From assembly GCF_037971845.1 (NCBI RefSeq), contig NZ_CP150227.1:6076001-6140000 (forward strand): DNA of 64,000 nucleotides. The letters are read 5' to 3'. Numbering within the stretch: position 1 is the first letter of the stretch; the number at the start of each line of letters is the position of its first letter. Made by a program: the position numbers and the translations under genes. Below the pieces are notes generated by a model that ran no database searches, had not been told where the DNA came from, and saw only the letters and a program-made list of their open reading frames with translations. Of this stretch, positions 1 to 37,037 are shown piece after piece. The DNA comes from Paenibacillus sp. FSL R5-0766. Its GTDB lineage: Bacteria > Bacillota > Bacilli > Paenibacillales > Paenibacillaceae.

Positions 1-2154
1 CGCGACGTAATAAGCAACAAGTTGCTTATGGCCGTTCGCGTCGTCCCGGGCGAGTACCACCGCTTCTTCCACGCCCCGGACGTTAAGAAGCTGCGTCTCA
101 ATTTCGTCCAGCTCGATCCGGTACCCGCGGACTTTGACCTGGTGGTCGATTCGGCCGAGGTATTCAATGTTGCCGTCCGGCAGCCAGGTCGCCAAGTCGC
201 CTGAGCGATACAGTTTTTCCCCCTCCGCAAACGGGGAATCAACGAACTTCTCCGCCGTCAGATCCGGACGGTTCAGGTATCCTCTCGCGAGCCCTTCCCC
301 GGCCACATACATTTCGCCCGCTACGCCGATCGGCACTGGGCGGCGGTTTTCATCCAGGACATACACTCTCAGCGTTGGGATTGGCTTGCCAATATTGCTC
401 TTCGCCGCCTCCATTTCGACCCACGTAATTTCCTTATACGTCACGTGAACCGTCGTCTCGGTAATACCGTACATATTGATCAGCTTTGTCTCCGGGTACT
501 TCGTCTTGAAACCCTTGAGCAAAAGCGGACTGAGCGCTTCGCCGCCGAAAATGACGTTGCGAATCAGCAGATCGTACGGATGATCCGCCAAGAGCTTACG
601 CAGCAGCTGATAGAAGTACGTTGGCGTCTGGTTCAAAATCGTGACCTGTTCGCGGCACAGCAGCGCCAGGAAATCGGTCGGATTTTTCGCCGTAAGCGGC
701 GGTACAATGACCAGCTTGCCTCCATACAACAGCGCTCCGTACATTTCCCAGACGGAGAAATCGAAGCAGAACGAGTGGAACAGCGTCCACGTGTCGAACC
801 GCCCGAAGTCGAACAAGTTCTTGTCGTTGAACAGGAGGCGCACGACGTTTTTATGCTCGATCAACGTGCCTTTGGGTTTGCCGGTCGTTCCCGACGTGTA
901 GATGACATATGCCAAGTTGCCCGACCCGGAAATTGGCTCCAGATTTGAAGCGTCCAGCGCACCTTCCGAGTCCGCCCCACTGTCTCCCCAAACGAAATCA
1001 TCTATTTCAAGGCGCGTTCCTGCAAAGTCGGTCTTCTCATGCAAATGCTTTTGAATCAGCAATAACGGTGCACCCGAATCCTCGATCATGAAGCGGATGC
1101 GCTCCTCCGGATAGTCGGGATCGACAGGCACGTAGGCTCCACCCGCTTTGAGAATCGCCAGTATGCCGACAACCATATCGAGTGAGCGTTCGGCCAGAAT
1201 CGCTACCAGCTGGTCCATTTCAACTCCCGTCTCCCTCAGCTTGCGCGCAAGATGGTTGGATCGCTCGTTCAGCTCGCGGTAGGTCAGCTGCCGTTCGTTC
1301 ATGACAACGGCCACGTTGTCCGGGTATAGCTCCGCCTGTTCTTCAAACAAACCGTGAATCGTTTTCCCCCGCTCGAACCCGGTTTCGGTGTCATTAAATC
1401 GATTCAGCAACGTCTCCCTCTCGTCCGGGGAAAGCACATCGGCTTGTCCAAGCTCCAGATCCGGCTGAAATACAAGCACGGACAGAAGCCGAACAAGATG
1501 GTCGGCCGCCTGTTCCACAAATTCCCGCTCGTACCGATTCCGGTCAAAGCTTATTTCCAGCTGAATAGAGTCGTTTTGGTGGTCAAATCGAAAAACCGTA
1601 TCTGCCGCCACCCGGTTACCCAGCGGTTCAGGATGGATCGGGGCGAAGGATGCAACGGTGTTGACGACCGGAAGGCCCTCTCCTGTATAGTCCAGATGGA
1701 GCGGCTCCACCATTTTCCGAAAAGGCAGATACTGATGCTCCAGCGCCTCGCCGATGGAGGCTTTGATGCCCCCGAGCAGCGTTTTCAGCGTAGTCTGGCT
1801 GCTTACGGACGTTTTGATCAACAGGATGTCATGTGGTGGCTGAGTCACGTCCGGGGCCCCGCTATAAGAAGGCATGCCGACAAGTACTTGATCCTGCCCG
1901 GTATATTTGAACAGCAGACTTTTTACTCCTGCCAAAACAATCATGTACAAAGCCAGATCCGAACCATTGGCGAGGCGAATAATTCTCTCCGAGAGCTCAC
2001 TCGGCAGGGTACGGTGAAGCAAAGCCGGCTCTGCCGCAGCTTCGCCGCCCGCAGATAATTTGGAGGATTGACTGTAGGGAAGGAAGCTCAGACTGTCATC
2101 GTCGTCAAACTTACTGCTCCAGTACCGTTCTTCCTTTTCAAATAAAGATTTCAT
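1..2154 (-). CDS. pmxB: Polymyxin-type NRPS subunit, Thr10 module (pmxB-like), partial
   Basis: Open frame from an ATG at 2154 (strong AGGGGAGGT site five bases upstream) running off the left edge, so only about 718 residues are seen. Residues 1 to about 245 are the C-terminal half of a condensation domain without the HHxxxDG motif, so catalytically dead. An adenylation domain follows, with the A3 core YTSGTTGKPKG. Its specificity pocket, read by alignment to GrsA, is D-F-W-N-I-G-M-V-H, the textbook threonine code. The frame ends near the A8 region; carrier and thioesterase domains would lie beyond the edge. It starts 166 nt after the large NRPS, which ends in an unpaired condensation domain that should serve this Thr module. 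Activating the last residue, Thr10, and cyclising the product is the role of PmxB in polymyxin synthesis; the thioesterase part is inferred, not seen. Confidence 0.85.
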   Translation of the reverse strand, partial: MKSLFEKEERYWSSKFDDDDSLSFLPYSQSSKLSAGGEAAAEPALLHRTLPSELSERIIRLANGSDLALYMIVLAGVKSLLFKYTGQDQVLVGMPSYSGAPDVTQPPHDILLIKTSVSSQTTLKTLLGGIKASIGEALEHQYLPFRKMVEPLHLDYTGEGLPVVNTVASFAPIHPEPLGNRVAADTVFRFDHQNDSIQLEISFDRNRYEREFVEQAADHLVRLLSVLVFQPDLELGQADVLSPDERETLLNRFNDTETGFERGKTIHGLFEEQAELYPDNVAVVMNERQLTYRELNERSNHLARKLRETGVEMDQLVAILAERSLDMVVGILAILKAGGAYVPVDPDYPEERIRFMIEDSGAPLLLIQKHLHEKTDFAGTRLEIDDFVWGDSGADSEGALDASNLEPISGSGNLAYVIYTSGTTGKPKGTLIEHKNVVRLLFNDKNLFDFGRFDTWTLFHSFCFDFSVWEMYGALLYGGKLVIVPPLTAKNPTDFLALLCREQVTILNQTPTYFYQLLRKLLADHPYDLLIRNVIFGGEALSPLLLKGFKTKYPETKLINMYGITETTVHVTYKEITWVEMEAAKSNIGKPIPTLRVYVLDENRRPVPIGVAGEMYVAGEGLARGYLNRPDLTAEKFVDSPFAEGEKLYRSGDLATWLPDGNIEYLGRIDHQVKVRGYRIELDEIETQLLNVRGVEEAVVLARDDANGHKQLVAYYVA

Positions 2155-2192
2155 TCGTACCTCCCCTAAAAATGAAGTGACCGCATGCCCCG

Positions 2193-2227
2193 GCGCAGAT
2201 CCGAAAAAACTTGCTTTCGGCCTGCGC
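2193..2227 (-). promoter_or_regulatory. Hairpin in the pmxA-pmxB spacer
   Basis: GCGCAG...CTGCGC (2193-2198 and 2222-2227) encloses CCGAAA...TTTCGG (2201-2206 and 2215-2220), giving a 12-bp stem with a small internal loop. No U-run follows on the minus strand, so it is not a normal intrinsic terminator. It may be a stabilising or attenuating structure between the two NRPS genes. No function is demonstrated. Confidence 0.45.
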
Positions 2228-2320
2228 GTTTACGGGCTTGATTTACGGAGTTGCAAGTTGTTCGCCGTCTTCCTTGGGATGCGCACCACTTTCGCTTGAC
2301 GGCGGAGCACGCTTGTAATA

Positions 2321-5300
2321 TTAGAACGCGAATTCGATCGTATCGACGGCACTCTTTGCGCCTGCCGCCGGTTTATGACATTCAATCCGACTTAGCTCAA
2401 GTTGTGGATTTTCCGCAATTTGAGAAAGTACCCGCAGGTAATCCTCCGTTAAGGTGCGGATCATCGTTTCTTTGAACAGTTTGGTGGCGTAGAAAAAGCC
2501 CCCGCTCAGTGCCCCTTCGTTTTCATACATAAACAGCGTCAGATCAAACTTCGCTTCTTCCAAATGGTCAAGCTCGTAATTCTTCAGGCTGACGCCTTCC
2601 AGCTCGGCATCTCGTTCTTCGATATTTTGCAAGTCAAAAACGGCATCGAACAACGGGAATCGGCCTGGTTCTCGCTTCACATTCAAACGCTCCACGAGTT
2701 CTTCGAATGGATAATCCTGATTCTCAAAAGCTCCCAAAGCCGTTTCCTTCACTTCATCAAGGTAGGACAGGAACGTTTTTTCGCCTGACGGACGACTGCG
2801 GAGCGCCAGTGTATTAACAAACATGCCGATGACCGGCTCCAAATCGGCGTTAGTTCTTCCCGCCACCGGGGTGCCTACGATTAAGTCTTCCTGCCCGCTG
2901 TACTTGGACAGCATCACGGTATATGCCGCAAGCAGTACCATGTACAGCGTGCTTTCACGCTCGGCCGCCAATTCACGCAGCCGCTCAGAGAGAGAAACTT
3001 CGACATCGAACTCCAGATGCGCGCCTTCGTAGTTGCGAACTGTAGAACGTTCGTAGTCCATCGGCAGATCCCCCGTTGGCAGCTCACCTTCGAAGGTTTG
3101 CAGCCAGTACGCTTCCTGCCGTCCGATCCGCTCCCGGTGGGCCTTCGACTGCTGCCAAACAGCATAATCCTTATATTGAATGCGTAGTGGCGGCAGTTCT
3201 TCCCCGGCGTAGAAACTCGAGAACTCATCCATCACAATCGCCATAGATACGCCATCCGACACAATATGGTGCATATCGAAAAGGAGAATATACCGGTTCG
3301 GCTCCAGTTCGACGACTCCGGCGCGCAGCAGCGGCGGCTTGCCGAGATCAAACGGACGAACAAAGTTGCGGACGATCTGCTCAACTTGAGCTGCATCCTC
3401 TGTAACCGCTTGATGATGCTCGATAGCAAAATCGACCTGCGGATAAATCCGCTGGACCGCTTCGCCCTTCACCATTTCAAAACCGGTGCGCAGCGATTCA
3501 TGCCGTGTTATCAGTTTCCGCAATGCGGCTTCCAACCGGTCTAAATCAAACTTGCCTTCCACCTGCACCAGTTCCGGCATGTTGTAAAGCTGATCCGCTC
3601 CATCCAGCGTGTGCTGAATAAACAGCCGTTTCTGCGCAGAGGACAGAGGGTAGTACTCTCTCTCTTCCGCTTGAGGAATGGCCTCATGCTCCCGCCGTTC
3701 CATCCGGGCAATCGCATCGGCCATCGCCGCAATCGTCGAGTGACGGAATACGTCGCGCAGCGGGAGGTTGACGTTTAGTTCCTTAAATACCTTGCCTGCC
3801 AGTGACGTTGCTCGCAGGGAGTGGCCGCCGATGTCGAAGAAGTTATCGTAAACGCCAATCTCCTTCGTAAGTCCCAGCACCTCCTGCCAAATTACCGCCA
3901 GCTTCGTTTCCAGCTCATTGCGCGGTGCGACGTACTCCGTTCCACTTCCAGCTTCCCCTTCCGGCGCCGGCAGCGCCTTCCGGTCCATCTTTCCGTTCGG
4001 CGTCAGAGGCAGGCGCTCCAGCTCCACGAAGTACGACGGGATCATGTAACCTGGCAACTCCTGTGCCAACGCACTGCGCAGATCGTTCACTAACAGCTTC
4101 GCACCAGTATCCGGCGTGTAATACGCACACAGCGCCTTCTGCCCGTTCGCATCACTTCGAACCAGCACCACCGCTTCGCGCACACCTTCCACCCGCAGCA
4201 GCTGCGACTCGATCTCACCCGTCTCGATCCGGTACCCCCGGATTTTCGCCTGATTGTCGATCCGGCCGATGAAGTCCACGTTGCCGTCCTCCATCCATCG
4301 CGCCAAATCTCCCGTGCGATACAATCGCTCACCCGCAGTGAAAGGACTGTCTACAAACTTCTCTTCCGTCAGCTCTGGACGGTTCAAGTACCCACGTGCT
4401 ACCCCAACGCCGCCGATAACCAACTCGCCCAGCACCCCGACCGGTATGGGATTCAGATGTGCATCTACGATGTAAAACTTCGCATTTAACCACGCTTTTC
4501 CAATCGGCACATGACCTGTCGGCGGCAGTTTCTCCAACTCATCGTCATAGAAACTGGAGTCGATTGCCGCTTCCGTTACGCCGTAAGCGTTAATGATGCG
4601 GAATGACGGGCCGAACCGTTCCTGCAAGGTACGGTAATCTGCCACGCTGCAGCTGTCCGAGCTTGTGATCAGCAACTCCATCTCGCTCAACTCCAGCCCT
4701 TGCTCGTGCACGTATTCCATAAACGGCACGATCAGCGCCGGCGTTGATTCAAAGATCGTCACTTGCTCTCGCTCTATCCAGTAGTGCAGACGAGACGGAT
4801 CAATCCGGTCGTCTTTCGGCACAATCACCATGCTGCCTCCGTTGTACAACGTCCGCGCGATATCACCCACGAACACGTCAAACGAGAAGCTGGCGAGTTG
4901 CAACAGCCTTACCGGGAACTGATCCAACCGGTATTCCCGTCGGTAACCCGCTGCCGTGTTCACCAGGCTGCGATGTTCGATCATTACACCCTTGGGCTTA
5001 CCAGTTGTTCCCGACGTGTAGATGACGTACGCCAAGTCCTCCGGACGAGCTTCATGGAAGCTGTCCATACCAACAACATCAACATCATTTGGATGACTCT
5101 CATTACGGTCGTTCACAGCACCCGTCAGCTCGCCGGAGACCAGACCTGAAACCATACCAGAGTCCATCGGTGCATTCTCCCGATCTTCGCTGTACGACGC
5201 TTCATCGTCGAGGTACAGCACCGTCCCCAGTGACAGTTCCTCTTCGCCGAGCCAGGCTTCGGCGCGCTCTCGCAGCGGCGTTTGTGTCAACAGCACCTTC

Positions 5301-8300
5301 GCTCCGCTGTCTTCCAGCATGAACCGCACACGGTCCGCCGGATAATCCGGGTCAAGCGGTATATACGCCCCTCCCGCTTTCCAGACGGCCATCACGGCCA
5401 CCAGCAAGTCCACCGAACGCTCGGCGAGAATGCCAACGATTGACTCCCGGCCGATGCCACTTGTGCGCAGTGTAGCCGCCAAGCGGTTCGCTCGTTCGTT
5501 CAACTCCACATACGTTAGGCGGTTATTTTCATACACGACGGCTTCCGCTTTCGGTGTGCGTTCCGCCTGTTCCTCGAACAACCGGTGGAACGCCGCCGCA
5601 GGAGCCTCTTCCGGCTGCGCCGGGTTAAACGCACTGAGAACTTGTTCTTTTTCCTCTGCTGTCAGCAAGTTCAGCTCCGCAATCTTCGCATCTGGATGGT
5701 TTACAATTGTCACGAGCAACTGCTCGTAATGTTTTGCCAGCCGTTCAATCGTCTCCCTTTTATAAAGAGCCGTCGCATATTCGAAGCTGTAATCCAATCC
5801 GCCGTTTTCCTCTCCCACATCCAAGCTGATATCAAACTTCGCAGTATCCAGTACGCTCGGATAAGGAATCAGGCGAAGCCCTTCCAGCTCAAATTGCTCA
5901 TTCTCCGTATTTTGCATCGTAAACATCGTGTCGAAGAGTGGATTACGACTTAAATCCCGGGTCACTTGCACCTTGTCCACCAATTGTTCGAACGGATAGT
6001 TTTGATGCTCAAAGGCGTGCAGAGTTGTTTCTTTAACTTCGTTCAGGTATGACAGGAATGTCTTCTCCGAAGCCGGATAACTGCGAATCGCCAACGTGTT
6101 TAGGAAAATCCCGATTAACGGCTGCACATCTCCATGATTCCTTCCGGCAATCGGCGTACCAACGATCACGTCTTCCTGACCTGAATATTTGTGCAAAAGC
6201 ACGTTATACGCCGCAAGTAGCACCATAAACAGCGTCGTGCCCGTTTCCGAAGCCAGCTGTTTCAGGCCGTCGGTTTTTGAAGCGTCGAAGAAAAACTCCA
6301 TCGTTTGGCCCTCATAGCTCTGTACAGCAGGACGTGGATAGTCGGTCGGCATTTCCAGCACTGGAAGCTCGCCCTGGAACATGTCCAGCCAATACGCCCC
6401 CTGATGCTGAAGCCGTTCCTGTTGCTCCTGCGAATGCTGCCAAACGGTGTAGTCTTTGTACTGAATGCGCAGCGGCTCCAATTGCTCTCCACCATACAAA
6501 CGCACAAATTCTTCAACAAAGATTTCCATCGAAACGCCGTCAGAAATAATATGATGCATGTCGTACATCAGAATATGGCGTTCCGGAGCCAGTTCAACAA
6601 GGCCCACCCTCAACAGCGGTGGCTTAGCCAAGTCAAACGGACGGACGAAACCGTGAACCACCGCTTCGACCTCTTGCTCATCCGCTTGATAGAACTCCAC
6701 CGAAAAATTCACGTCCTGGTAAACCCGCTGTGATGCTTCGCCATCCACCATTTCGAACCCGGTGCGCAACATTTCATGCCGCGCCACCAGCTTGCGGAAC
6801 GTTTCTTCGAACCTTGCCCGGTCCAAAGCACCCTCCAGCAGCATCGCTTCCGGCATGTTGTAGCTAAGCTCCGCACCTTCCAGCTGATTCAGGATAAAGA
6901 GACGTTTTTGAGCAAAAGATTGAGGGTACACCTCTCGGTCATCCGCCACCGGAATGGCAACAAATGTCTGCTCATCCAGCCGGTAAATGACGGCAGCCAT
7001 GCTCTCGATCGTGGAATGGCGGAACACGTCGCGCAGTGGCAGATCCACGTTCAAGTCTTTATGAATCTTGCTGACCAACGTTGTCGCGCGCAGGGAGTGG
7101 CCACCGATGTCGAAGAAGTTGTCGTGAATACCAATCTCCTTCGTAAGCCCCAGCACTTCCTGCCAAATAACTACCAGCTTCATTTCCAGCTCATTGCGTG
7201 GTGCGACGTACTGTGTTCCGCTTCCCGCTTCTCCTTCCGGCGCTGGCAGCGCCTTTCGGTCAAGTTTCCCGTTCGGCGTCAGAGGCAGGCGCTCCAGCTC
7301 CACGAAGTACGACGGGATCATGTAACCTGGCAGCTCCTGTGCCAACGCACTGCGCAGATCGTTCACCAACAGCCTCGCACCAGTATCCGGCGTGTAATAC
7401 GCACACAGCGTTTTCTGCCCGTTCGCATCACTTCGAACCAGCACCACCGCTTCGCGCACACCTTCCACCCGCAGCAGCTGCGACTCGATCTCACCCGTCT
7501 CGATCCGGTAACCCCGGATTTTCGCCTGATTGTCGATCCGACCGATGAAGTCCACGTTGCCGTCCTCCATCCACCGCGCCAAATCTCCCGTTCGATACAA
7601 CCGCTCACCAGCGGTGAAAGGGCTGTCTACGAACTTCTCTTCCGTCAGCTCTTGACGGTTCAAGTACCCTCTTGCCACGCCAACCCCGCCGATAACCAGC
7701 TCGCCCAGAACCCCGACGGGCACGGGATTCAGATGTGCATCCACGATGTAGAACTTCGCATTCAACCACGCTTTGCCAATCGGCACATGGCCTGTCTGCG
7801 GCAGCTTCGCCAACTCCTCATCATAGAAACTGGAGTCAATTGCCGCTTCCGTCACACCGTAGGCGTTAATAATGCGGAACGACGGGCCGAACCGTTCCTG
7901 CAAGGTCCGGTAATCTGCCACACTGCAGCTGTCCGAGCTAGTGATCAACAGCTCCATCTCGCTCAACTCCAGCCCTTGCTCGTGCACGTATTCCATAAAC
8001 GGCACGATCAGCGCCGGCGTTGATTCAAAAATCGTCACTCGCTCCCGCTCTATCCAATAGTACAGACGAGACGGATCGATCCGATCGTCCTTCGGTACAA
8101 TGACCATGGTGCCTCCGTTGTACAACGTGCGTGCGATATCACCCACGAACACGTCAAACGAGAAGCTTGCGAGTTGCAACAGCCTTACCGGGAACTGATC
8201 CAACCGGTATTCCCGTCGGTAACCCGCTGCCGTGTTCACCAGGCTGCGGTGCTCGATCATTACACCCTTTGGCTTACCCGTCGTACCTGACGTGTAGATT

Positions 8301-11300
8301 ACATAGGCCAAATCCTCTGGACGAGCTTCATGGAAGCTGTCCATATCAACAACATCAACATCATTTGGATGACTCTCGCCACCACCGTTCACAGCACCCG
8401 TCAGCTTACTGGAGACTTTACCGGAAACCATGCTGGAGCCAAGCGGTGCATTCTCCCGTTCTTCGCTGTATGACGTTTCGTCGTCGAGGTACAGCACCTT
8501 CGCCAGTGACAGTTCCTCTTCGCCGAGCCAGGCTTCGGCACGCTCTCGCAGCGGCGTTTGTGTCAACAGCACCTTCGCTCCGCTGTCTTCCAGCATGAAT
8601 CGCACGCGGTCTGCCGGATAATCCGGGTCAAGCGGTATATACGCCCCGCCCGCTTTCCAGACCGCCAGCACGGCCACCAGCAAATCGACCGAACGCTCGG
8701 CGAGAATGCCAACAATCTCCTCCCGGCCGATTCCACTTGCGCGCAGCGTTGCCGACAGGCGGTTCGCCCGTTCATTCAGCTCCGCATACGTAAGCCGATC
8801 GTTTTCGTACACGACCGCCTCCGCTTCCGGAGTGCTCTCCGCCTGTTCCTCGAACAGGCGGTGGAACGCCGCCACAGGAGCCACTTCCGACTGCGCCGGG
8901 TGGAACGCGCCGATAATTTGCTCTTTTTCCTCTGCCGTCAGCAAGTCCAGCTCGGCAATCTTCGCATCTGGACGGGTTACGATCGCCGCAAGCAAATGTC
9001 CAAAATGAATCGATAGCCGCCGGATCGTGCTTTCTTTATAAAGAGCCGTTGCGAATTCAAAGTTGCACTCCAATCCGCCATTTTCTTCCGTAACATCCAC
9101 ACTCAGGTCGAACTTGGCCATACCATATTCACTAGGGTACGGGGACAATTTCAGCCCTTCCAGCTCAAACTCTGACTCCTCCAGGTTTTGCAAGGAGAAC
9201 ATCGTGTCAAACAGCGGGTTGCGGCTCAAATCCCGGCTAACCTGCACTTTATCGACGAGTTCTTCGAACGGATAATTCTGATGCTCGTAAGCGCCTATGG
9301 TCGTTTCTTTCACTTCTTCCAAATACGACAGGAAGGTCTTCTCCGAAGCCGGATAATTGCGGATCGCCAGCGTATTAACAAACATTCCGATCAAGGGCTG
9401 CATATCGCCGTGCGTTCTGCCCGCAATCGACGTGCCAACGATCAAATCATCCTGACCTGTGTATTTATGCAAAAGCACGGTGTATGCGGCAAGCAACACC
9501 ATATATAGCGTCGTTCCTCTTTGAGCGGCTAGCTGCTTCAAGCCTTCGTTCGTTGCCTCGTCCACAAAAGACGTCAGCGTATGTCCCTCATAGCTCTGTA
9601 CAGCAGGACGCGGGTAGTCCGTTGGCATTTCCAGAACCGGCAGCTCGCCCCGGTAACGGTCCAGCCAGTAAGCTTCCTCGCGTTTCAATTGCACTTTTTG
9701 CTCGTCCGATTGCTGCCATACCGCATAGTCCTTGTACTGAATGCGCAAAGGTTCTAATGACTCGCCGCCGTACAAACGAACGAGTTCCTCAACGAACACG
9801 TCCATTGAAACCCCGTCGGAGATGATATGGTGCATGTCAAACATCAGTAAATAACGATCGGCTGCCAGCTCTACGAGCTCGGCACGCAGCAACGGTGGCT
9901 TCGCCAAGTCGAAAGGTCGGATAAAAGCCTGCACGATTGCAGATGCTTCTTCCTCGTTTGCATGTCGACACACAGCGGCAAAATCAACGCTCTCGTAAAT
10001 TCGCTGTACCGCTTCGCCTTGCACGATCTCAAATCCGGTTCGCAACGTTTCATGACGTTCGATCAGTCCGCGGAAAGCTTTCTCCAGCAGGCTGTGGTCA
10101 ATCGATCCTTCGAGCAGCAGCACACCCGGCATGTTATAGCTCTGATCGGCTCCTTCCAGCTGATTCAGGATAAACAGCCGCTTCTGAGCTGAGGAAAGTG
10201 GATAATACGCTCTTTCATCTGCCAGCGGAATCGACGAGAACAACTGCTCTTCAATCCGGGAGAGGGCGAGAGCCATCTCTTCGATCGTTGAGTAGCGGAA
10301 TACGTCGCGCAGAGGCAACTCGACGTTCAACTCCTGATGCACCTTGCTCACCAGTGTCGTTGCCCGCAGGGAATGGCCGCCCAAGTCAAAGAAGTTATCA
10401 TGAACCCCGATGTGTTCCAATCCGAGCACGCTTTTCCATATTTCAGCCAAGCTGGCTTCCAACGGAGTCCGAGGCGGAGTATGTCCTTCGCCCGGCAACA
10501 AGCTCTCCTCAGGTGCCGGGAGGGAGCGGCGGTCAACCTTGCCGTTCGTCGTCAGCGGAAGCCGTTCCAACTGGATCAGGTACGCGGGGATCATATAGGC
10601 AGGAAGTTCCTGGGAAAGAACGCTCTTCAGCTCGGCCGCCGGAAGCTCACGGTCCGCTTCATAATAGGCGCAAAGTTGCTTCTCGCCAGAGGCGTTTTCC
10701 CGCGCAAATACCGTCGTTTTCCGAATTCCCTGCACTTTCTGAAGCTGAGCTTCGATCTCGCCTAGCTCAATACGGAAGCCGCGGACTTTCACTTGATCAT
10801 CCGTCCGCCCCACGTATTCAATCGTGCCGTCCGGTAGCCATTTTGCCAAATCCCCTGTCCGGTACATGCGCTCTCCCGGCACAAACGGATGGTCCACAAA
10901 TTTCTCCGCCGTTAGCTCCGGCCGGTTATTGTAGCCCTGTACCAAGCCTTCTCCGCCGACGCAAAGCTCCCCGGCCACGCCGATCGGCAGAAGTTTATTC
11001 TTGCTGTCGACGATATACACCGTCGTATTGCTGATCGGCCGTCCGATGGGTACGGTAACCGCGGAGTCATCGACAAAGTCGACTGGAAGATACGTGGTAT
11101 AAACCGTGCTTTCTGATGGGCCGTACAGGTGGTTGAGCCTGCCCGGTCCGATATGGGCGAGCGCTTTACGCACATGGCCGACCGACACGCGCTCTCCTCC
11201 GAACAAAATCGCCCGGACATCCCGCAGGCAGTTGACGTTCACATCCACAAGGACGTTGAAGAAAGCCGTCGTGATCAGCATGACCGAGATTCGCTCGCGC

Positions 11301-14300
11301 TGGATGAGATCCGCCAGCTGGCCGATTTCCAGCAAAGTCTCGTGGGGAACCAGCACCAGCCGTGCCCCGTTGGTCAAAGCACCGAAAATATCAAAAATCG
11401 CTCCGTCGAACGAATAGCTCGAAAGCTGGAGGACATGATCCCGCTCAGTGATGTCGATATAATTCGTATTTCGCACGATCCGCACGATATTGCGGTGCGA
11501 AACAAGGTTTCCTTTTGGCTTGCCCGTCGTGCCTGACGTATAGATGATGCAAGCCAGATCTGTCGCTTCGTTGCCCGAATTTAGATTTGTGCGGTCCTCG
11601 TGATAGAAGGACTCGTCATCCAGTAAGATCACGGAGTCCGAACCAGCTAGGCGCTCGCGTAATCGGCTTTGCGTCAGCATGACCTGCGCACCTGAATCCT
11701 CGATCAAGAAACGGATACGCTCCTCGGGATATTCCGGGTCAATCGGTACGTAAGCCGAACCGGCTTTGTGTGCCGCCAGCATACCCACCACCATTTCGAT
11801 GGAACGCTCAGCCATAATGGCGACCAGGCGGCCTTTGGATATCCCGTGGCTACGCAAGGTACGAGCAAGGCGGTTAACGCGTTCGTTCAGCTCGCGGTAG
11901 GTCAGCTCTTGCCCATTCAAGGAGATGGCAGCTGCATCCGGGATGCGCTCCGCCTGCTCTTCGAACAATTGAATGAGCGTTTTCCCGCGCGGAAATTCCG
12001 TTGTGGTGTCGTTAAAACGACCGAGAAGGTCAGCTTTTTCCGCCTCCGTCACAAGTTCCAGCTCACCCACGGTAATTTCCGGGTTATCCGCCACCTGCTC
12101 CAGCAAATGAACGAGATGCCCCTTGAGCCGCTCAATGCTATCTTTATCAAACACTTCTGCGTTAAAGTCGAACCGAATTTCAATCTCGTCTCCCGGCACC
12201 ACGGTGACGTTGAAGTTATAGTTTGTCTGCTCCTCCATCTGAACATCAGCAATCGTCAGGTCGCCGTGCTGCTGGTCCCCCGCCTGCTCCATCTGCTCGT
12301 CCACCGGATAGTTCTCAAAAGCGATGATATGGTTGATCAGGTTCTGCTTTTGCACGCTGCGGGCCTGAATTTCATACAGCGGATAGTAATCATAACGCCC
12401 GGACTCCAGCGCCCGCTCTTGAAGCTTCGCCATCAGGTCGGCGAACACGGTGTCCGCTTCACTCGTGACCCGGACCGGCACCGTATTGATGAACAGCCCG
12501 ATCATCGACTCAATGCCCGGGATTTCCGCCGGTCTTCCGGCCACGACGCTACCGAATACGGCATCGTTTGTTCCGTTATATTTTTGCAGCATCACGCCCC
12601 AAATAGCTTGCAGCAGTGTATTGACCGTAACCAGGCGCTGTTTCGCCACCCGGTCCATCCGCTCGCTCAAGTCCTTGCCCAGCTCGGCGGTGACGTGATC
12701 AGCCGTAAATCTGCCGTTGGGCGCCACTTCCTTTTGTCCCGGGAGTACGGTTTGCCCTTCATAACCTGCCAGGAATGCCATCCAATAGCTTGATGCCGCC
12801 TGATCGTCCTGTTTCTCCAACCATTCGAGATAGGCGCCATAATCCGATCCCTTATCTCCCGCTGACTGCTCGCCGGATGCCAAGGCCGAGTATGCCTCAA
12901 ACAGCTCCTGTGTCAGCTGAGCCAGGCACCAGCCGTCCATCAAAATATGTTGGAAACTCCACAGTACATGATAACTTTGCTCTTCGGTGCGCAGGATCGT
13001 GAACCGAACGAGCGCGTCATGTTCCATGTCGAAGCCGCGAAGCTTGTCCTCCTCGGCCTTTTTATCCAAGTAAGCTTGTTTCTCGTCCATCTGCATATGA
13101 AGCAGCTCTTCATATTCAAAACCGACCGGTTTGTTGCGGTATATGATTTGCAACGGCTCGCCCGCCGGTCCTTTCACAAAATTCGCCCGCAGCACCAGAT
13201 GACGTTTCGCAAGTTCCATCCAACTCCTCTCAAAAAGCTGGACGTCGAGCGCTCCCCGCATCGTAAACCGCGTCTGCTCAAAATAAGCTGCCGTTTGCCG
13301 TTCAAGCGCGCTGTGGAACCACATCCCCTTCTGCATCGGCGTAAGTGAGTAAATATTTTCGATTTCCCCGAGATGGCCCGAGCGCTGGGCGATTTGCTCC
13401 AATTCTGCAATGGTCAAGCCTTTAAATTGCACGTCGCTCGGCGTCAATTCAGTGTTTTCTTTGCCTGCACAGTGGATAATGAGGTCTCGAAGACTCTGCT
13501 CAAGCCGCTGAGCGAGGGCTTCCATCGTTTCCTTGCGATACTGCTTCCGGCTGTAGCTGAGATCGAGCGATAAAGCGCCGTCCAGCACCATACCGTTGAT
13601 ATCCAGCACAAAGCTGCGGGCCTGCCGGTCGCTAGCCGGGCTGCCGCTGGAATAAGAAGATATGCCGATCTCGTCCTGGTCGACATCATCGTCGAACTGG
13701 CCGAGGTAGTTAAAATTAATTTCCGGCTCTGCGCCCCAAACCAATTCATCCTCCAATTTCGAGAGATAGCGGCATATGCCGTACCCTAACCCCTTGTTTG
13801 GAATACGGCGCAAGTTTTCCTTGACCTGTTTAATCTGATATGACAAATCTCGGTCGGTTTCCGGTTCCAGGACGACCGGAAACTTGGTCGTAAACCAGCC
13901 AACTGTACGCGTGATGTCGATATCCGTTCCGATCGATTCACGTCCGTGTCCTTCGAGATTGATCCGCACCCGTTCATGCCCCGTCCATTTGCGTAAGGCT
14001 ATGCCGAGCGCCGTTACCAAAATATCATTCATTTCGGTGTTGTAGGCACGGTGAACCCGCTTCAGTAGCAGCTCCGTTTCTTCGGGAGTCAAACGGACAA
14101 ACAGCGATTCGCTGTCATGCTGCGTCGTAACGTCCGCCTCCATATCCTTCGGCACGGCCAGAACCTCCATTTGTTCCACGGCCTGCCAATAGGCCCGTTC
14201 CTTTGCCATCTCCGGACTTTGCGCGTAAGCAGCCAGCTGCTCGGACCAAGTGCGGTACGCATCTGTTTTCGCCGGGAAACGAATTCCCTCGCTTTTGCCA

Positions 14301-17272
14301 ATCTGCTCGTAACCTAGAGCGAAATCCTCCATCAAAATGCGCCAAGACACGCCGTCTACCACGGCATGATGAACCGCGAGCAACAAATGATCTCCGTCCT
14401 CGCACTGGAACAGTGCCGCCTTCATAAGGGGCCCGTTCACCAGATCGATGCCTGCTTGAATGTCCGTTGCCTTCTCTTCCACAGCCTGTGTGGGATTCTC
14501 CGCATCCTTAAAGTCGAACACGTCAAGCGTGAACAGTCCACCATCCTGAATCGCTCGGGTTAACGCACCAAACCCTTGTTCCGTCTTGCAGAACACCATG
14601 CGCAAGGCGTCATGATGCTCGGCCAGCTTTTGCAGCACCTGATACACTATCTCTTCGTTGAAGCGATCCTTCCGGTACAGCATCACCGACTGGTTGAAAT
14701 GATGCGGGTCTGCAAAGGAACTCTCGAAAAACCAATGCTGAATCGGCGTCAATGCCGTTTCACCCGTTATTTCGCCTTGATCGATGGTACGTCTGATCGG
14801 TTTCACATGCAGGCTGAGCTGTGAAATCGTCGGATATTTGAACAAATCCCGGATTTCCAGCTTGTACCCGGCTTGATGAAGCCGCGAAGATACTTGAATG
14901 GACTTGATCGAGTCTCCGCCCAGCTCAAAGAAATGATCCGTTACCCCAACACGATCAGCGTTTAATACCGCCTGCCACACATCAGCAAGCGTTCGCTCGG
15001 CTTCATTGCGGGGAGCTACGTACGCGCCGCCAGTCAATGCGTTTCCTTCCGGGGCAGGTAAAGCCTTACGATCGATTTTGTCGTTCGGCGTGAGCGGCAT
15101 CCGCGGAAGCTGAACAAAATGCGCCGGAATCATGTAATTCGGCAATTTTTGCGCCAGTGCGCTTCTCAGCTCGCCGAGCGTAAGAGGGAGGCTCGCGACC
15201 AGGTAAGCGCACAGTTCTTGCCCGCTTTTGCCTTCCCGCGCGATTACAATCGTCTCCTGCACCGAGTCGATCTTCAGAAGCTGCTCTTCAATCTCACCGA
15301 CCTCGATTCGGAATCCACGGATTTTCACCTGATGGTCGATCCGGCCCAAGTACTCCATATTTCCGTCCGGCAGCCAGCGGGCGAGATCTCCTGTCCGGTA
15401 AAGGCGTTCTCCCGGCGCAAACGGATGTTCCACAAACTTCTCTGCCGTCAGCTCCGGTTGGTTCAGGTAACCTCTCGCAAGCCCAACGCCTGCCACGCAC
15501 AGCTCGCCGTCCACTCCCGGAGGCACAAGTTGCAGGTGGGCATCCAAAATAAAAATCTGATGATTAGCCAGCGGGCGCCCGATCGGAATGACTCTGCGCT
15601 CCGGCTGCTGCTCATCCGCATCCCAAAGCGTTGTAACAATCGAAGCTTCGGTTGGGCCGTAAGCATTGAAATAGTGAACCTTCGCTTTCCACTGCTGCAC
15701 GAATTCAGCCGATACGGCCGAACCTCCCGTTACAAGCTTTGTTAAGTTGGGAAGACGATCCGGGTTCAAATGAGCGCTATACGTCGGAGGCAAAATCGCC
15801 GCCGTAATCGCATGCTCGTTCATATAACTCTCGAACAGACGAGTGTCGAGAATTGTTTCGGCCGTCGGGATGTACAAAGCCGCGCCGAAATAGAGTGCTT
15901 TGAACACTTCCCAGCAGGATGCGTCGAAGGACAAGCTCGCAAATTGAACGATCCGGTCATGCTCCGTGATGCCCAGCCTGTCTGCGAACATCAGCTTCAA
16001 GCTGACCAAACCACGATGCTCCAGCATGACCCCTTTGGGTTTGCCCGTTGTACCTGACGTATAAATGACATAAGCAAGATCGTTTGGACCGCTGACCGCC
16101 TCCAGGTTCGAGCCATCGCCGCTATAGGCCTGCTCGTCATCAAGCGCCAAAACGGTCCCTTCAAACGGGACTTGCTGTAACAGCTCTCTTTGAGTCAGCA
16201 GCAGCTGCGCGTTCGAGTTCTCCAGAATGTAGCGGATACGTTCTTCCGGGTACTCCGGATCGATCGGCACGTAGGCACCGCCAGCTTTCAGAACCGCCAG
16301 AATGCCAATGACCGTCTCCAGTGATCTCCTGACCATCAAGCCTACCAACTGATTGGGCAGCACACCGACCGATCGTAGCGTACGCGCCAGCTGGTTTGCC
16401 CGTTCGTTCAACTCTGCGTATGAAAGCCGCTGCCCCTCAAAGACAACCGCAGTCGCCTCGGGCACACGCTTCGCTTGCTCCTCCACAAGCTGATGAATCG
16501 TCCGATCACGAGGATAGTCCTTCTCGGTATCGTTGAAGCTTTGCAGTAATTGAAATTTTTCGTCCTCCGACAGCATGTCCGCTCGCACGATGTCCAACTC
16601 CAGCTCATAAAGCCCCACGGACAGCAGGCGATTCAGGTGGCCGACGACCCGATTCATGAACTCGGAGTCATATAAGTGCTCGTTATATGACAGCGCTAGC
16701 TGTATCGTCCCACCGGTTAAACTGAATTCAAATGAACAGTCCGTGACCACGTTTTGCCCAATTTCGTCCAGATGCAGCTCCTTAAGGGATACTAGCGTAT
16801 GGACGATGGGTATCCCTTCTGTATATTGCAGATCCAGCTTCTCCGTCATTTTCAAGAACGGAATATGTTGATGCTGAATCGCTTCCGGCAAGGAAGTCCT
16901 CAGTTCGCTCAGTAGCGTTTTAAAAGTTGCCCCCACCGAAAGCGAGTTTTTCAAAATGACCATATGATTAACGGATCGACGGGTCTCCCCCTTTTTCGGC
17001 ACAACCGGCATGCCGACCAGAATGTCTGAAGCTCCTGTATATTTATGCAAGAGTGCCTGAACACCAGCGAGCAAAATCATAAAAGCAGCCAGCGGAGCAC
17101 CCTTGCTCATTTGAAGGACGCGCTGCGCCGCTTCCTCCGAAAGCGGACCGTCAACGGTTTTCACATTGGGCACCAGGGAGTTTGGAGCTTTGCTGTAAGG
17201 CAACCGCGTCAAGGTATAATCGTCACTACCGAATTTTTCGTTCCAAAACAACGTTTCTTTTTCAAAAGCCAT
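2321..17272 (-). CDS. pmxA: Polymyxin-type NRPS, modules 6-9 (pmxA-like)
   Basis: A 4,983-residue cytosolic NRPS. Domain order with rough residues: half condensation domain 1-245 (no HHxxxDG), A1 250-770, carrier (LGGDS, about 785), epimerase 840-1290 (HHAVVDG), C2 1305-1760 (QHILMDG), A2 1765-2265, carrier, C3 2355, A3, carrier, C4 3439, A4, carrier, C5 4523-4983 (HHIVSDG). Pocket residues by alignment to GrsA: A1 D-A-W-I-V-G-A-I-V (Phe/Leu-like, epimerised), A2 D-G-F-L-L-G-L-V-Y (Ile/Leu-like), A3 and A4 D-V-G-E-I-S-A-I-D (Dab). With Thr on the next protein this equals polymyxin residues 6-10, and the gene length fits the roughly 15 kb known for pmxA. The start at 17272 has a GAGGGG site; the longer frame from 17365 has none. 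A3 and A4 are near-identical copies. The exact polymyxin variant is uncertain. Confidence 0.85.
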   Translation of the reverse strand: MAFEKETLFWNEKFGSDDYTLTRLPYSKAPNSLVPNVKTVDGPLSEEAAQRVLQMSKGAPLAAFMILLAGVQALLHKYTGASDILVGMPVVPKKGETRRSVNHMVILKNSLSVGATFKTLLSELRTSLPEAIQHQHIPFLKMTEKLDLQYTEGIPIVHTLVSLKELHLDEIGQNVVTDCSFEFSLTGGTIQLALSYNEHLYDSEFMNRVVGHLNRLLSVGLYELELDIVRADMLSEDEKFQLLQSFNDTEKDYPRDRTIHQLVEEQAKRVPEATAVVFEGQRLSYAELNERANQLARTLRSVGVLPNQLVGLMVRRSLETVIGILAVLKAGGAYVPIDPEYPEERIRYILENSNAQLLLTQRELLQQVPFEGTVLALDDEQAYSGDGSNLEAVSGPNDLAYVIYTSGTTGKPKGVMLEHRGLVSLKLMFADRLGITEHDRIVQFASLSFDASCWEVFKALYFGAALYIPTAETILDTRLFESYMNEHAITAAILPPTYSAHLNPDRLPNLTKLVTGGSAVSAEFVQQWKAKVHYFNAYGPTEASIVTTLWDADEQQPERRVIPIGRPLANHQIFILDAHLQLVPPGVDGELCVAGVGLARGYLNQPELTAEKFVEHPFAPGERLYRTGDLARWLPDGNMEYLGRIDHQVKIRGFRIEVGEIEEQLLKIDSVQETIVIAREGKSGQELCAYLVASLPLTLGELRSALAQKLPNYMIPAHFVQLPRMPLTPNDKIDRKALPAPEGNALTGGAYVAPRNEAERTLADVWQAVLNADRVGVTDHFFELGGDSIKSIQVSSRLHQAGYKLEIRDLFKYPTISQLSLHVKPIRRTIDQGEITGETALTPIQHWFFESSFADPHHFNQSVMLYRKDRFNEEIVYQVLQKLAEHHDALRMVFCKTEQGFGALTRAIQDGGLFTLDVFDFKDAENPTQAVEEKATDIQAGIDLVNGPLMKAALFQCEDGDHLLLAVHHAVVDGVSWRILMEDFALGYEQIGKSEGIRFPAKTDAYRTWSEQLAAYAQSPEMAKERAYWQAVEQMEVLAVPKDMEADVTTQHDSESLFVRLTPEETELLLKRVHRAYNTEMNDILVTALGIALRKWTGHERVRINLEGHGRESIGTDIDITRTVGWFTTKFPVVLEPETDRDLSYQIKQVKENLRRIPNKGLGYGICRYLSKLEDELVWGAEPEINFNYLGQFDDDVDQDEIGISSYSSGSPASDRQARSFVLDINGMVLDGALSLDLSYSRKQYRKETMEALAQRLEQSLRDLIIHCAGKENTELTPSDVQFKGLTIAELEQIAQRSGHLGEIENIYSLTPMQKGMWFHSALERQTAAYFEQTRFTMRGALDVQLFERSWMELAKRHLVLRANFVKGPAGEPLQIIYRNKPVGFEYEELLHMQMDEKQAYLDKKAEEDKLRGFDMEHDALVRFTILRTEEQSYHVLWSFQHILMDGWCLAQLTQELFEAYSALASGEQSAGDKGSDYGAYLEWLEKQDDQAASSYWMAFLAGYEGQTVLPGQKEVAPNGRFTADHVTAELGKDLSERMDRVAKQRLVTVNTLLQAIWGVMLQKYNGTNDAVFGSVVAGRPAEIPGIESMIGLFINTVPVRVTSEADTVFADLMAKLQERALESGRYDYYPLYEIQARSVQKQNLINHIIAFENYPVDEQMEQAGDQQHGDLTIADVQMEEQTNYNFNVTVVPGDEIEIRFDFNAEVFDKDSIERLKGHLVHLLEQVADNPEITVGELELVTEAEKADLLGRFNDTTTEFPRGKTLIQLFEEQAERIPDAAAISLNGQELTYRELNERVNRLARTLRSHGISKGRLVAIMAERSIEMVVGMLAAHKAGSAYVPIDPEYPEERIRFLIEDSGAQVMLTQSRLRERLAGSDSVILLDDESFYHEDRTNLNSGNEATDLACIIYTSGTTGKPKGNLVSHRNIVRIVRNTNYIDITERDHVLQLSSYSFDGAIFDIFGALTNGARLVLVPHETLLEIGQLADLIQRERISVMLITTAFFNVLVDVNVNCLRDVRAILFGGERVSVGHVRKALAHIGPGRLNHLYGPSESTVYTTYLPVDFVDDSAVTVPIGRPISNTTVYIVDSKNKLLPIGVAGELCVGGEGLVQGYNNRPELTAEKFVDHPFVPGERMYRTGDLAKWLPDGTIEYVGRTDDQVKVRGFRIELGEIEAQLQKVQGIRKTTVFARENASGEKQLCAYYEADRELPAAELKSVLSQELPAYMIPAYLIQLERLPLTTNGKVDRRSLPAPEESLLPGEGHTPPRTPLEASLAEIWKSVLGLEHIGVHDNFFDLGGHSLRATTLVSKVHQELNVELPLRDVFRYSTIEEMALALSRIEEQLFSSIPLADERAYYPLSSAQKRLFILNQLEGADQSYNMPGVLLLEGSIDHSLLEKAFRGLIERHETLRTGFEIVQGEAVQRIYESVDFAAVCRHANEEEASAIVQAFIRPFDLAKPPLLRAELVELAADRYLLMFDMHHIISDGVSMDVFVEELVRLYGGESLEPLRIQYKDYAVWQQSDEQKVQLKREEAYWLDRYRGELPVLEMPTDYPRPAVQSYEGHTLTSFVDEATNEGLKQLAAQRGTTLYMVLLAAYTVLLHKYTGQDDLIVGTSIAGRTHGDMQPLIGMFVNTLAIRNYPASEKTFLSYLEEVKETTIGAYEHQNYPFEELVDKVQVSRDLSRNPLFDTMFSLQNLEESEFELEGLKLSPYPSEYGMAKFDLSVDVTEENGGLECNFEFATALYKESTIRRLSIHFGHLLAAIVTRPDAKIAELDLLTAEEKEQIIGAFHPAQSEVAPVAAFHRLFEEQAESTPEAEAVVYENDRLTYAELNERANRLSATLRASGIGREEIVGILAERSVDLLVAVLAVWKAGGAYIPLDPDYPADRVRFMLEDSGAKVLLTQTPLRERAEAWLGEEELSLAKVLYLDDETSYSEERENAPLGSSMVSGKVSSKLTGAVNGGGESHPNDVDVVDMDSFHEARPEDLAYVIYTSGTTGKPKGVMIEHRSLVNTAAGYRREYRLDQFPVRLLQLASFSFDVFVGDIARTLYNGGTMVIVPKDDRIDPSRLYYWIERERVTIFESTPALIVPFMEYVHEQGLELSEMELLITSSDSCSVADYRTLQERFGPSFRIINAYGVTEAAIDSSFYDEELAKLPQTGHVPIGKAWLNAKFYIVDAHLNPVPVGVLGELVIGGVGVARGYLNRQELTEEKFVDSPFTAGERLYRTGDLARWMEDGNVDFIGRIDNQAKIRGYRIETGEIESQLLRVEGVREAVVLVRSDANGQKTLCAYYTPDTGARLLVNDLRSALAQELPGYMIPSYFVELERLPLTPNGKLDRKALPAPEGEAGSGTQYVAPRNELEMKLVVIWQEVLGLTKEIGIHDNFFDIGGHSLRATTLVSKIHKDLNVDLPLRDVFRHSTIESMAAVIYRLDEQTFVAIPVADDREVYPQSFAQKRLFILNQLEGAELSYNMPEAMLLEGALDRARFEETFRKLVARHEMLRTGFEMVDGEASQRVYQDVNFSVEFYQADEQEVEAVVHGFVRPFDLAKPPLLRVGLVELAPERHILMYDMHHIISDGVSMEIFVEEFVRLYGGEQLEPLRIQYKDYTVWQHSQEQQERLQHQGAYWLDMFQGELPVLEMPTDYPRPAVQSYEGQTMEFFFDASKTDGLKQLASETGTTLFMVLLAAYNVLLHKYSGQEDVIVGTPIAGRNHGDVQPLIGIFLNTLAIRSYPASEKTFLSYLNEVKETTLHAFEHQNYPFEQLVDKVQVTRDLSRNPLFDTMFTMQNTENEQFELEGLRLIPYPSVLDTAKFDISLDVGEENGGLDYSFEYATALYKRETIERLAKHYEQLLVTIVNHPDAKIAELNLLTAEEKEQVLSAFNPAQPEEAPAAAFHRLFEEQAERTPKAEAVVYENNRLTYVELNERANRLAATLRTSGIGRESIVGILAERSVDLLVAVMAVWKAGGAYIPLDPDYPADRVRFMLEDSGAKVLLTQTPLRERAEAWLGEEELSLGTVLYLDDEASYSEDRENAPMDSGMVSGLVSGELTGAVNDRNESHPNDVDVVGMDSFHEARPEDLAYVIYTSGTTGKPKGVMIEHRSLVNTAAGYRREYRLDQFPVRLLQLASFSFDVFVGDIARTLYNGGSMVIVPKDDRIDPSRLHYWIEREQVTIFESTPALIVPFMEYVHEQGLELSEMELLITSSDSCSVADYRTLQERFGPSFRIINAYGVTEAAIDSSFYDDELEKLPPTGHVPIGKAWLNAKFYIVDAHLNPIPVGVLGELVIGGVGVARGYLNRPELTEEKFVDSPFTAGERLYRTGDLARWMEDGNVDFIGRIDNQAKIRGYRIETGEIESQLLRVEGVREAVVLVRSDANGQKALCAYYTPDTGAKLLVNDLRSALAQELPGYMIPSYFVELERLPLTPNGKMDRKALPAPEGEAGSGTEYVAPRNELETKLAVIWQEVLGLTKEIGVYDNFFDIGGHSLRATSLAGKVFKELNVNLPLRDVFRHSTIAAMADAIARMERREHEAIPQAEEREYYPLSSAQKRLFIQHTLDGADQLYNMPELVQVEGKFDLDRLEAALRKLITRHESLRTGFEMVKGEAVQRIYPQVDFAIEHHQAVTEDAAQVEQIVRNFVRPFDLGKPPLLRAGVVELEPNRYILLFDMHHIVSDGVSMAIVMDEFSSFYAGEELPPLRIQYKDYAVWQQSKAHRERIGRQEAYWLQTFEGELPTGDLPMDYERSTVRNYEGAHLEFDVEVSLSERLRELAAERESTLYMVLLAAYTVMLSKYSGQEDLIVGTPVAGRTNADLEPVIGMFVNTLALRSRPSGEKTFLSYLDEVKETALGAFENQDYPFEELVERLNVKREPGRFPLFDAVFDLQNIEERDAELEGVSLKNYELDHLEEAKFDLTLFMYENEGALSGGFFYATKLFKETMIRTLTEDYLRVLSQIAENPQLELSRIECHKPAAGAKSAVDTIEFAF
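3820..5560 (-). repeat. Near-identical Dab adenylation/carrier DNA, copy in module 9
   Basis: The A4-carrier coding DNA matches the A3-carrier DNA at about 7100-8840 with a constant offset near 3,276 bp. Long stretches are identical apart from scattered single-base changes. Both copies also carry an extra segment of about 35 codons before the A3 core. This indicates recent duplication or gene conversion between modules 8 and 9. Boundaries are approximate. Confidence 0.8.
7100..8840 (-). repeat. Near-identical Dab adenylation/carrier DNA, copy in module 8
   Basis: Partner of the repeat at about 3820-5560. Both encode Dab-selecting adenylation domains with the same nine-residue pocket. The flanking condensation domains are clearly more divergent, so the homogenised unit is adenylation plus carrier rather than a whole module. 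Confidence 0.8.
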
Positions 17273-17932
17273 CTGGATCGTTCCCCTCTCTTCATCGGTA
17301 AAAGCAATCCGGCAGAGCATATGCCGAAGCAACGCTCCAGCCTCGCTCCTCTCCTTTTCAAACATCTGACAACAACAAGCATCGTTCTACGCAAGAGATG
17401 CGGTTACTTCGGACTCCTCTGCTTCAATAAGATTGCTGCCGACGAGTCACCCGAAGACGGGATTTGGTTTAACATGGGATTCAGAATTGGATTTGGGGAT
17501 AGACGACAAGGAATGTTCCTCCTGTCGATGTAAGGCTTGCCGCAGGGTTCCAGCCGTCCAGCAGGAAGTCGACCGTACCTCCTGATTTGGCACCCGAGCT
17601 GCCTTTGACGAAGCCTATGTTTAAGGGGTATTGATACACTCTATGTACGATTTGCTTATTCCCCCACAGCCCTGGTGTGGATAAGTAAAGATTCGGCTGC
17701 GGGGTAGTGAGCTTTTCCTGACGATTATATTTAACGAGGGTACTGCATGAGACTCAAGGAATGCTCCGTATGGCACGAACGGTACTGCCCTTGGATTGCC
17801 GGAGAATTCCATGCTGATTGACGTTACCGCAGGTAGCATGAGGAGAAAGCGCTACCTTAACATCAAGTCCGCACGCCTTCCGGAAGGCACTTTCATGCCT
17901 CTTGCCGGGGGCGGCCATCGGCTTGGCCAAGC
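17273..17932. other. Spacer between ectB-like gene and pmxA
   Basis: 660 nt without a convincing gene. It holds an AT-poor leader, a 7-bp hairpin (AGGTAGC 17831-17837 with GCTACCT 17851-17857), a 14-nt perfect palindrome (17875-17888), a GGCCA/TGGCC stem right after the ectB stop, an isolated TATAAT on the minus strand (17724-17729) and the startless open frame listed separately. No U-tract terminator is seen, so ectB and pmxA may be co-transcribed. Confidence 0.5.
17481..17753 (-). pseudogene. Startless open frame, possible gene remnant
   Basis: Ninety sense codons between two in-frame stops on the minus strand, with no ATG or well-placed GTG/TTG. The translation reads like real protein (segments such as NIGFVKGSSGAKSGG and TGGTFLVVYPQIQF, few rare residues) and ends in a TGA. 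I do not recognise a family. It could be the tail of a gene broken when the cluster was assembled, or chance in GC-rich DNA. Confidence 0.25.
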
Positions 17933-22217: not shown

Positions 22218-22489
22218 AATTTATTTCCTCCGTTTGTATATGAATACTGTGTCACGAAGATAAACAGGCAGAGGCGGCACATCGGAAAAATGAGTGATTG
22301 CCTAGCGTTTCATGAATACTTGGTACTTATTCAATTATCAATGATCAGAGCGACCTCGTGTAGCCCCGCTGTCATCATAAGTGTTATGAATGCAATCATG
22401 AATGTACATCATTTTCCCGTCCGCGTACTGTTTACGCTCTTCACGCACATTCATTTGAATTTTAGTTTAACTCTTGCACCTGCACCGGC

Positions 22490-22684
22490 GCGTTGTGTGG
22501 ACAGTCACCTATCCATTTTCCGCAATCCGGTTTACGGCTCTGGTGCTTCACCGGGAGGTCCCCGCCGAACAATCCGAACACCTCCACCTCGTCAGCTTGA
22601 TTGCCGTTGATCTTAATCAGCCGTTCTTCAACCTAGAAGAAATCCTGATCAACATCATCCCGCGCAACTCCAAGCTCTGGCGCT
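22490..22684 (-). ncRNA. glmS ribozyme: glmS ribozyme (GlcN6P-sensing, self-cleaving)
   Basis: The minus strand carries AAGCGCCAGAGCTTGG at 22685 downward, matching the cleavage site (between A22684 and G22683). Further on, CTGACGAGGTGGAGG, TTCGGCGGGGACCTCCCGG and a GGTGACTGTCCAC segment match the conserved core and P4 region of Bacillus glmS ribozymes. It sits about 270 nt before the glmS ATG. Known function: glucosamine-6-phosphate acts as coenzyme for cleavage, and the cut message is degraded, giving feedback control. The 3' limit is approximate. Confidence 0.93.
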
Positions 22685-22740
22685 TGTGTAACTGTAACCT
22701 TACGTTCCTCACTTTCTGTGTCTGAATGACAACTCCACTC

Positions 22741-33604: not shown

Positions 33605-33682
33605 CGCGTAGCTTACATTTCAGAGTTGTTGTTCTCTGAAAACTAGATTCGAAACAAAACATGCGAATTATCACTTGCTATT

Positions 33683-36730
<3,048 letters not shown>

Positions 36731-37012: not shown

Positions 37013-37037
37013 ATATGAAATGAAAAGGTGTAGATGG

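Follow-up and report, generated by a model that had tools for sequence, protein, structure and literature searches.

The locus analysed here lies on the minus strand of the single 7,001,614-base contig of a complete 7.0 Mb genome, and the window, the whole stretch of 64,000 nucleotides under analysis, spans genome positions 6076001-6140000. The genes follow one another in the order ectB-pmxA-pmxB-pmxC-pmxD-pmxE, all on one strand and with zero internal stops (Table 1). The T and TE domains of pmxB fall outside the window. Further to the left, where a sequence-only reading of the window had placed the rest of the cluster, we found two ABC transporter genes and a five-module pmxE.

Table 1. Features of the pmx locus (window positions unless marked as genome positions)
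Feature	Position	Strand	Description
ectB	17933..19216	-	diaminobutyrate--2-oxoglutarate transaminase, 427 aa; TIGR02407 585 bits, cut-off 552
Leader between ectB and pmxA	17273..17932	-	660 bases
pmxA	2321..17272	-	4,983 aa; half-C, A6(Leu)-T-E, C7-A7(Leu)-T, C8-A8(Dab)-T, C9-A9(Dab)-T, C10, tail
PmxA N-terminal half condensation domain	16568..17272	-	Pfam Condensation positions 187-456 only; C-terminal lobe, lacks HHxxxDG
A6	15026..16474 (approximate limits)	-	DAWIVGAI (Leu), code compared with PMC3708778 Table 2
E6 epimerase	13424..14764	-	HHAVVDG and EGHGR motifs
A7	10586..11968 (approximate limits)	-	DGFLLGLV (Leu), code compared with PMC3708778 Table 2
A8	7316..8854 (approximate limits)	-	DVGEISAI (Dab), from code
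A9	4046..5578 (approximate limits)	-	DVGEISAI (Dab), from code
PmxA C-terminal complete C domain and tail	2324..3658	-	ends VDTIEFAF
pmxB	1..2154 (first 718 codons); genome 6074846-6078154	-	1,102 aa; half-C, A10 (DFWNIGMV, Thr)
ABC transporters (pmxC/pmxD)	left of window; genome 6073030-6074856, 6071300-6073033	-	608 and 577 aa
pmxE	left of window; genome 6052054-6071163	-	6,369-aa frame

The longest open frame of pmxA runs uninterrupted from 17365 to 2321 (minus, 5,014 aa), and no Shine-Dalgarno-like site is visible at its upstream ATG (17365). Because the Shine-Dalgarno-like GAGAGGGG lies directly upstream of 17272, the longer form was set aside in favour of this start, which gives the 4,983-aa protein. 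A chance origin of pmxA is no issue, given the 15-kb open frame and the repeated profile matches, the best Condensation match (Pfam) having an E-value of 3e-136. For pmxE, the annotated frame is probably too long at its start by about 50 codons; a Met stands behind a purine-rich stretch at codon 50, and PmxE of strain E681 is given as 6,312 aa (PMC6429003). The sizes that the same source gives for PmxB, PmxC and PmxD of E681 (1,102, 608 and 577 aa) equal those found here. The leader between ectB and pmxA had no Rfam match at the gathering score; a review reports that AbrB binds the pmxA promoter. Adjoining the locus, a glmS ribozyme (22476-22695) lies upstream of glmS, and the window also holds an rRNA operon (33488-38936) with a 5S and two tRNA genes between 16S and 23S, followed by a second 5S and 11 tRNA genes.

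In PmxA, Pfam finds four AMP-binding, four PP-binding and six Condensation-family stretches, the last including the N-terminal half-C and the E6 epimerase. PmxE opens with a divergent C domain and closes with another C domain, with five A domains, five T motifs and a module-3 epimerase in between, so that the ten modules are split 5 (PmxE) + 4 (PmxA) + 1 (PmxB). PmxB is composed of a half-C, A, T and a terminal TE; its end, at which the sequence-only reading had wished to see a thioesterase, indeed reads A-T-TE. The polymyxin hallmarks of a terminal thioesterase, two ABC transporters and, for the non-polar D-residue at 6, an epimerase in module 6 (DAWIVGAI followed by an E domain) are all present, and the divergent first C of PmxE is predicted to supply another, the lipid-loading starter C domain. 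Three ACPS-family (phosphopantetheinyl transferase) genes occur in the genome.

The adenylation codes were read with position 278 anchored by hand on family-specific anchors, since automatic multi-family alignment misplaced this position. Modules 1 to 5 (PmxE) read DVGEISSI, DFWNIGMV, DVGEISSI (followed by E), DVGEISAI and DVGEISAI, and modules 6 to 10 (PmxA and PmxB) read DAWIVGAI (followed by E), DGFLLGLV, DVGEISAI, DVGEISAI and DFWNIGMV. From the window alone, a hydrophobic residue with epimerase, an aliphatic residue and two Dab had been assigned to the 4,983-residue protein and Thr to the next, with the Thr and Dab codes spelled out; these assignments and both codes are borne out. So is their equation with polymyxin residues 6-10 across the PmxA/PmxB split, the partner synthetase PmxE having the order Dab-Thr-Dab(+E)-Dab-Dab of residues 1-5. 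According to Table 2 of PMC3708778, the ten codes correspond to Dab-Thr-Dab-Dab-Dab-Leu-Leu-Dab-Dab-Thr, module 6 agreeing with E681 (D-Leu), module 7 with PKB1 (Leu) and the remaining codes with M-1 and E681. The polymyxin rule described in PMC11019560 includes Dab at positions 1, 4, 5, 8 and 9 and Thr at position 2, and this is what the codes DVGEISSI/DVGEISAI and DFWNIGMV give. The residues that mark colistin against the entries of PMC3708778 Table 2 (Dab3, D-Leu6, Leu7 and Thr10) are likewise found in the codes.

The ten codes therefore predict the sequence of colistin (polymyxin E), with the proviso that A-domain codes can be promiscuous and substrate activation would have to follow them. 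Leu6, Leu7 and Thr10 argue for polymyxin E and not B, a division that the sequence-only reading had left open; its polymyxin type stands, and its B half falls with the Leu6 code. A polymyxin B product with Phe6 is accordingly very improbable, even though relatives with the Phe6 code DAWTIAAI exist (L041, L043, L045, L050-L052, G038-G040), as DAWIVGAI is the code listed for D-Leu of E681 (PMC3708778 Table 2). Macolacin is ruled out by Dab, Leu and Thr at residues 3, 7 and 10. A non-functional line or a differently ordered lipopeptide, such as octapeptin or pelgipeptin, could appeal to the shared Dab modules and to nothing else, and given ten modules, Thr as residues 2 and 10, and unbroken frames, we consider it next to impossible. 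Octapeptin, which had already been judged a misfit, is ruled out by the ten modules with Thr last; the probable octapeptin cluster described below has eight, ending in Leu. Pelgipeptin, to which the sequence-only reading gave Ser as last residue, is ruled out by the number of modules.

A scan of contigs with the first 260 residues of PmxA returned 24 named Paenibacillus loci. In 23 of them pmxA is preceded by an EctB match (in L042 one of 80 residues only), the exception being L061 of P. chitinolyticus, whose pmxA-like gene has no EctB match in the 10 kb on its upstream side. For 15 of the 24, a GlmS match stands no further than 10 kb upstream of pmxA. Of 75 genomes of the genus, the host's own among them, 23 have a closely matching PmxA N-terminus (78-100% identity, in one of them split in two frames); the other matches listed are 33-41% alike. 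We decoded 19 polymyxin clusters: the window's own, nine belonging to the named loci and nine from further genomes of the genus. Of 12 named genomes searched, ten supplied these nine and the octapeptin line described below, while ISL-58 and P. amylolyticus stand outside this set. One code of G065 was unreadable, and an additional unreadable match next to masked sequence in P. agilis was discarded. The starter C of PmxE (genome 6069694-6071010) is 84-99% identical in the other 18 clusters. Colistin codes together with a module-3 epimerase are found in nine of the 19 (the window, PCH8, OVF10, P. polysaccharolyticus, P. aquistagni, G063, G062, G015 and G065, the last with DAWIIGAI at module 6). 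Elsewhere, the codes are those of polymyxin A in P. alvei DSM 29 and of polymyxin P in G039 and G040, and DGFFLGVV stands at module 7 of P. woosongensis and P. agilis. The clusters of P. xylanexedens, PAMC 26794 and G080 are macolacin-type, with Ser3 (code DVWHFSLV, which we take to specify Ser), DGFFLGVI at 7 and Leu10. Macolacin is described as differing from colistin by replacements at positions 3, 7 and 10 (PMC10221052) and as carrying D-Ser3 (PMC11019560); our script, the same throughout, reads Ser3, a changed module 7 and Leu10 for P. xylanexedens, in agreement with these sources, and this served as the positive control. The pmx frames are partly broken in OVF10 (L087-L089), PCH8 (L084-L086) and G037 (L127-L129), possibly through sequencing errors.

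The stereochemistry of residue 3 deserves separate attention. Polymyxin E is described with L-Dab throughout (PMC4454717), whereas the cluster studied here has an epimerase in module 3, and because of this domain D-Dab is probably residue 3. Were the epimerase inactive or bypassed, ordinary colistin with L-Dab3 would be made. Clusters lacking this domain do exist: G037, with colistin codes, and G038, with polymyxin B codes, have no second E domain, and PMC8532632 reports a colistin cluster, that of P. polymyxa P4, without a module-3 epimerase, adding that earlier published polymyxin clusters had one. In the window's cluster, however, E3 retains the intact motifs HHLVVDG and EGHGR. Such a domain is present in 17 of the 19 decoded clusters, and the sequence found here is 81-97% identical to those of the 16 others. 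Moreover, the C domain after E3 is 46% identical to the C domain after E6, and the clusters without E3 also lack this type of C domain at module 4 (best other match 25%). Ordinary L-Dab3 colistin is thus an unlikely product, and D-Dab at residue 3 is the expected one.

Taken together, the cluster is almost certainly an intact polymyxin E (colistin) cluster, as judged from its genes and codes, in which EctB would make L-Dab. PmxE, with its starter C domain and modules 1-5, would build acyl-Dab-Thr-Dab-Dab-Dab, the fatty acid being attached at the start and the Dab of module 3 epimerised. PmxA would then append D-Leu-Leu-Dab-Dab, the D-configuration of residue 6 being predicted from E6, and PmxB would append Thr. 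The thioesterase of PmxB would release the peptide through ring closure onto Dab4, and PmxC/PmxD would export it, presumably as an active lipopeptide. Within the genome, ectB is the sole gene above the TIGR02407 cut-off; a second, weaker EctB-like gene (380 bits, under the cut-off) is also present, so ectB need not be the sole source of Dab.

P. xylanexedens DSM 21292 (L039/G001) has its macolacin-type cluster at the same locus, next to glmS and ectB. Over the initial 10.8 kb, its pmxA is 92.9% identical in DNA to the window, and the transporters and much of pmxE are mostly 94-98% identical, yet the cluster encodes Ser3, DGFFLGVI at 7 and Leu10 where the window has Dab3, Leu7 and Thr10. The glmS-side flank is 96.5-97.0% identical to those of P. 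xylanexedens, PAMC 26794, OVF10 and ISL-58, from which we infer that the host belongs to the P. xylanexedens/amylolyticus group. One of these loci, L041, is labelled P. polymyxa ISL-58; at glmS it shares 96.6% identity with the window, so the label may be mistaken; its modules 6-7 read Phe-Leu.

How two such similar lines come to encode different residues was judged by identity comparisons. In 250-base steps, the two clusters are mostly 84-98% identical. Identity falls to 43-46% in the A core of module 10 and to 38-76% over module 3, one step at the annotated pmxE frame start is at 34%, and module 7 lies just slightly under its surroundings; the P. xylanexedens stretch stops before the end of pmxE, so the final zeros are an artefact, and PAMC 26794 covers that part. 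The cores were then compared step by step (60 bases each) over a stretch that begins 20 bases ahead of the A3 motif and reaches 700 bases past it. The module-10 core of P. xylanexedens (L075-L077) is 87-98% identical in DNA to its own module 6 and 35-78% to module 10 of the window, while the region upstream of it (-500 to -80) is 85-93% identical to the window's module 10. As protein, this core is 96% identical to A6 of its own cluster and at most 36% to the other A domains there. The A6 cores of other strains are equally close (95-96% in protein; for P. alvei, 90-100% in DNA), and the idea of a copy of its own module 6 was therefore dropped; the Leu10 core looks as though it was copied from a module-6 core of its own or a foreign genome. 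Over 1.5 kb, the Thr7 domain of P. alvei (L081-L083) shares 88-100% identity with module 2 of its own cluster, with other strains equally close. In G040 (L121-L123), the identity between Thr7 and module 2 of the same cluster is 93-100% from -440 onward and 100% in every step from +280 onward, pointing to copying inside a single synthetase. In each case the direction of copying is our reading of the identities. Apparently, then, related lines at one locus encode colistin-, macolacin- or polymyxin B-type codes (the last in L041, modules 6-7) by exchange of A-domain cores. Such natural exchanges correspond to the domain swaps that engineers attempt and mark workable breakpoints.

The most novel observation concerns the junctions between the subunits. 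Both PmxA and PmxB open with the second half of a condensation domain and lack HHxxxDG. These half-Cs are 38% identical to one another and 19-29% identical to the C domains of the line (alignments of more than 100 residues), and structural alignment places a model of the PmxA half-C on the C-terminal lobe of C domains of solved structure. At the other side of each junction, PmxE and PmxA close with a complete C domain and a tail, ..IDIIF in PmxE and ..TIEFAF in PmxA (2324-2371). IEFAF closes 18 of 18 PmxA ends compared (17 polymyxin, one octapeptin; PCH8 and OVF10 left out), and ID-I-x-F closes 14 of 14 PmxE ends (13 polymyxin, one octapeptin; P. xylanexedens, P. woosongensis, P. aquistagni, P. 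agilis, OVF10 and G037 left out). For six of six other half-C starts from genomes of the genus, the upstream frame ends likewise (..IEVDFF, ..IDFVF, ..IELNF, ..IEISI); about four of these are independent, as two pairs look like one line in two species. A family-wide search gave 30 loci, of which ten are pmxA, where PmxE is not the neighbour, and the half-C stands at the frame start in 29, being internal in L167. Among 18 adjacent upstream frames other than ectB, 15 carry the tail [ILV][DES][FILV]x[FLI], and L166, L169 and L173 lack it. Over all DNA compared, the pattern occurs in 45 of 335 distinct frame ends (frames of at least 300 aa), 44 of them by eye from NRPS loci (22 being PmxA/PmxE or octapeptin ends) and one (L102) not; since it was written after many of these tails had been seen, it is a description and not an independent test. 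Matches to the half-C profile in 41 of 118 genomes mix half-Cs with ordinary C domains and do not amount to a count of half-Cs.

We tentatively propose, giving the idea somewhat less than an even chance, that PmxE, PmxA and PmxB are joined through docking elements other than the COM, PAX and beta-hairpin types, and that the same pair of elements serves at other NRPS junctions of the family. The upstream subunit would present a complete C domain with a short acidic tail ending ..I(D/E)(F/I)xF, and the catalytically dead C-terminal C lobe of the downstream subunit would receive this tail and complete the C-A platform. If true, this would give a testable rule of subunit pairing and a new tool for joining NRPS proteins. 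The docking classes set out in a 2021 review are COM, PAX and beta-hairpin, with no half-C/tail kind among them (PMC9113145). A limited check of the literature met no description of a half-C docking element, which does not establish its absence from print. Outside the window, the genome carries a second large NRPS line (2914511-2957679; L036-L038) of three proteins with 12 A-domain matches and four E motifs. Its subunit ends are of other kinds than half-C/tail and presumably resemble the known docking classes. An NRPS pair also lies outside the window (genome 5990864-5997736); one frame, of 1,252 aa, gives a match to the half-C profile, and another, in L016, ends ..EDLDFNF.

Among known systems, the line for polymyxin E, a last-resort antibiotic, is itself of a known kind, and the cluster is one more intact example; ordinary as such, it has its value in comparison, as the named neighbour species employs almost identical genes for a different antibiotic, macolacin. 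The P. chitinolyticus line (L061/G011) has eight modules with the codes Dab, Dab, Dab, Leu, Leu, Dab, Dab, Leu, which we take to be the octapeptin order, and is a probable octapeptin cluster. It shares with the window's cluster the richness in Dab, related transporters and TE, and the half-C/tail junctions, and differs in having eight modules with Leu last where the window's line has ten with Thr last. The colistin clusters of P. alvei B-LR and P. polymyxa P4, as described in PMC8532632, have the five-gene architecture and the polymyxin E product in common with the window, P4 differing in the missing module-3 epimerase. Finally, the polymyxin A, B and P clusters of E681, PKB1 and M-1 have the same gene content and differ from the window at residue 6 and/or 7 (PMC3708778 Table 2), the remaining modules having the same specificities.
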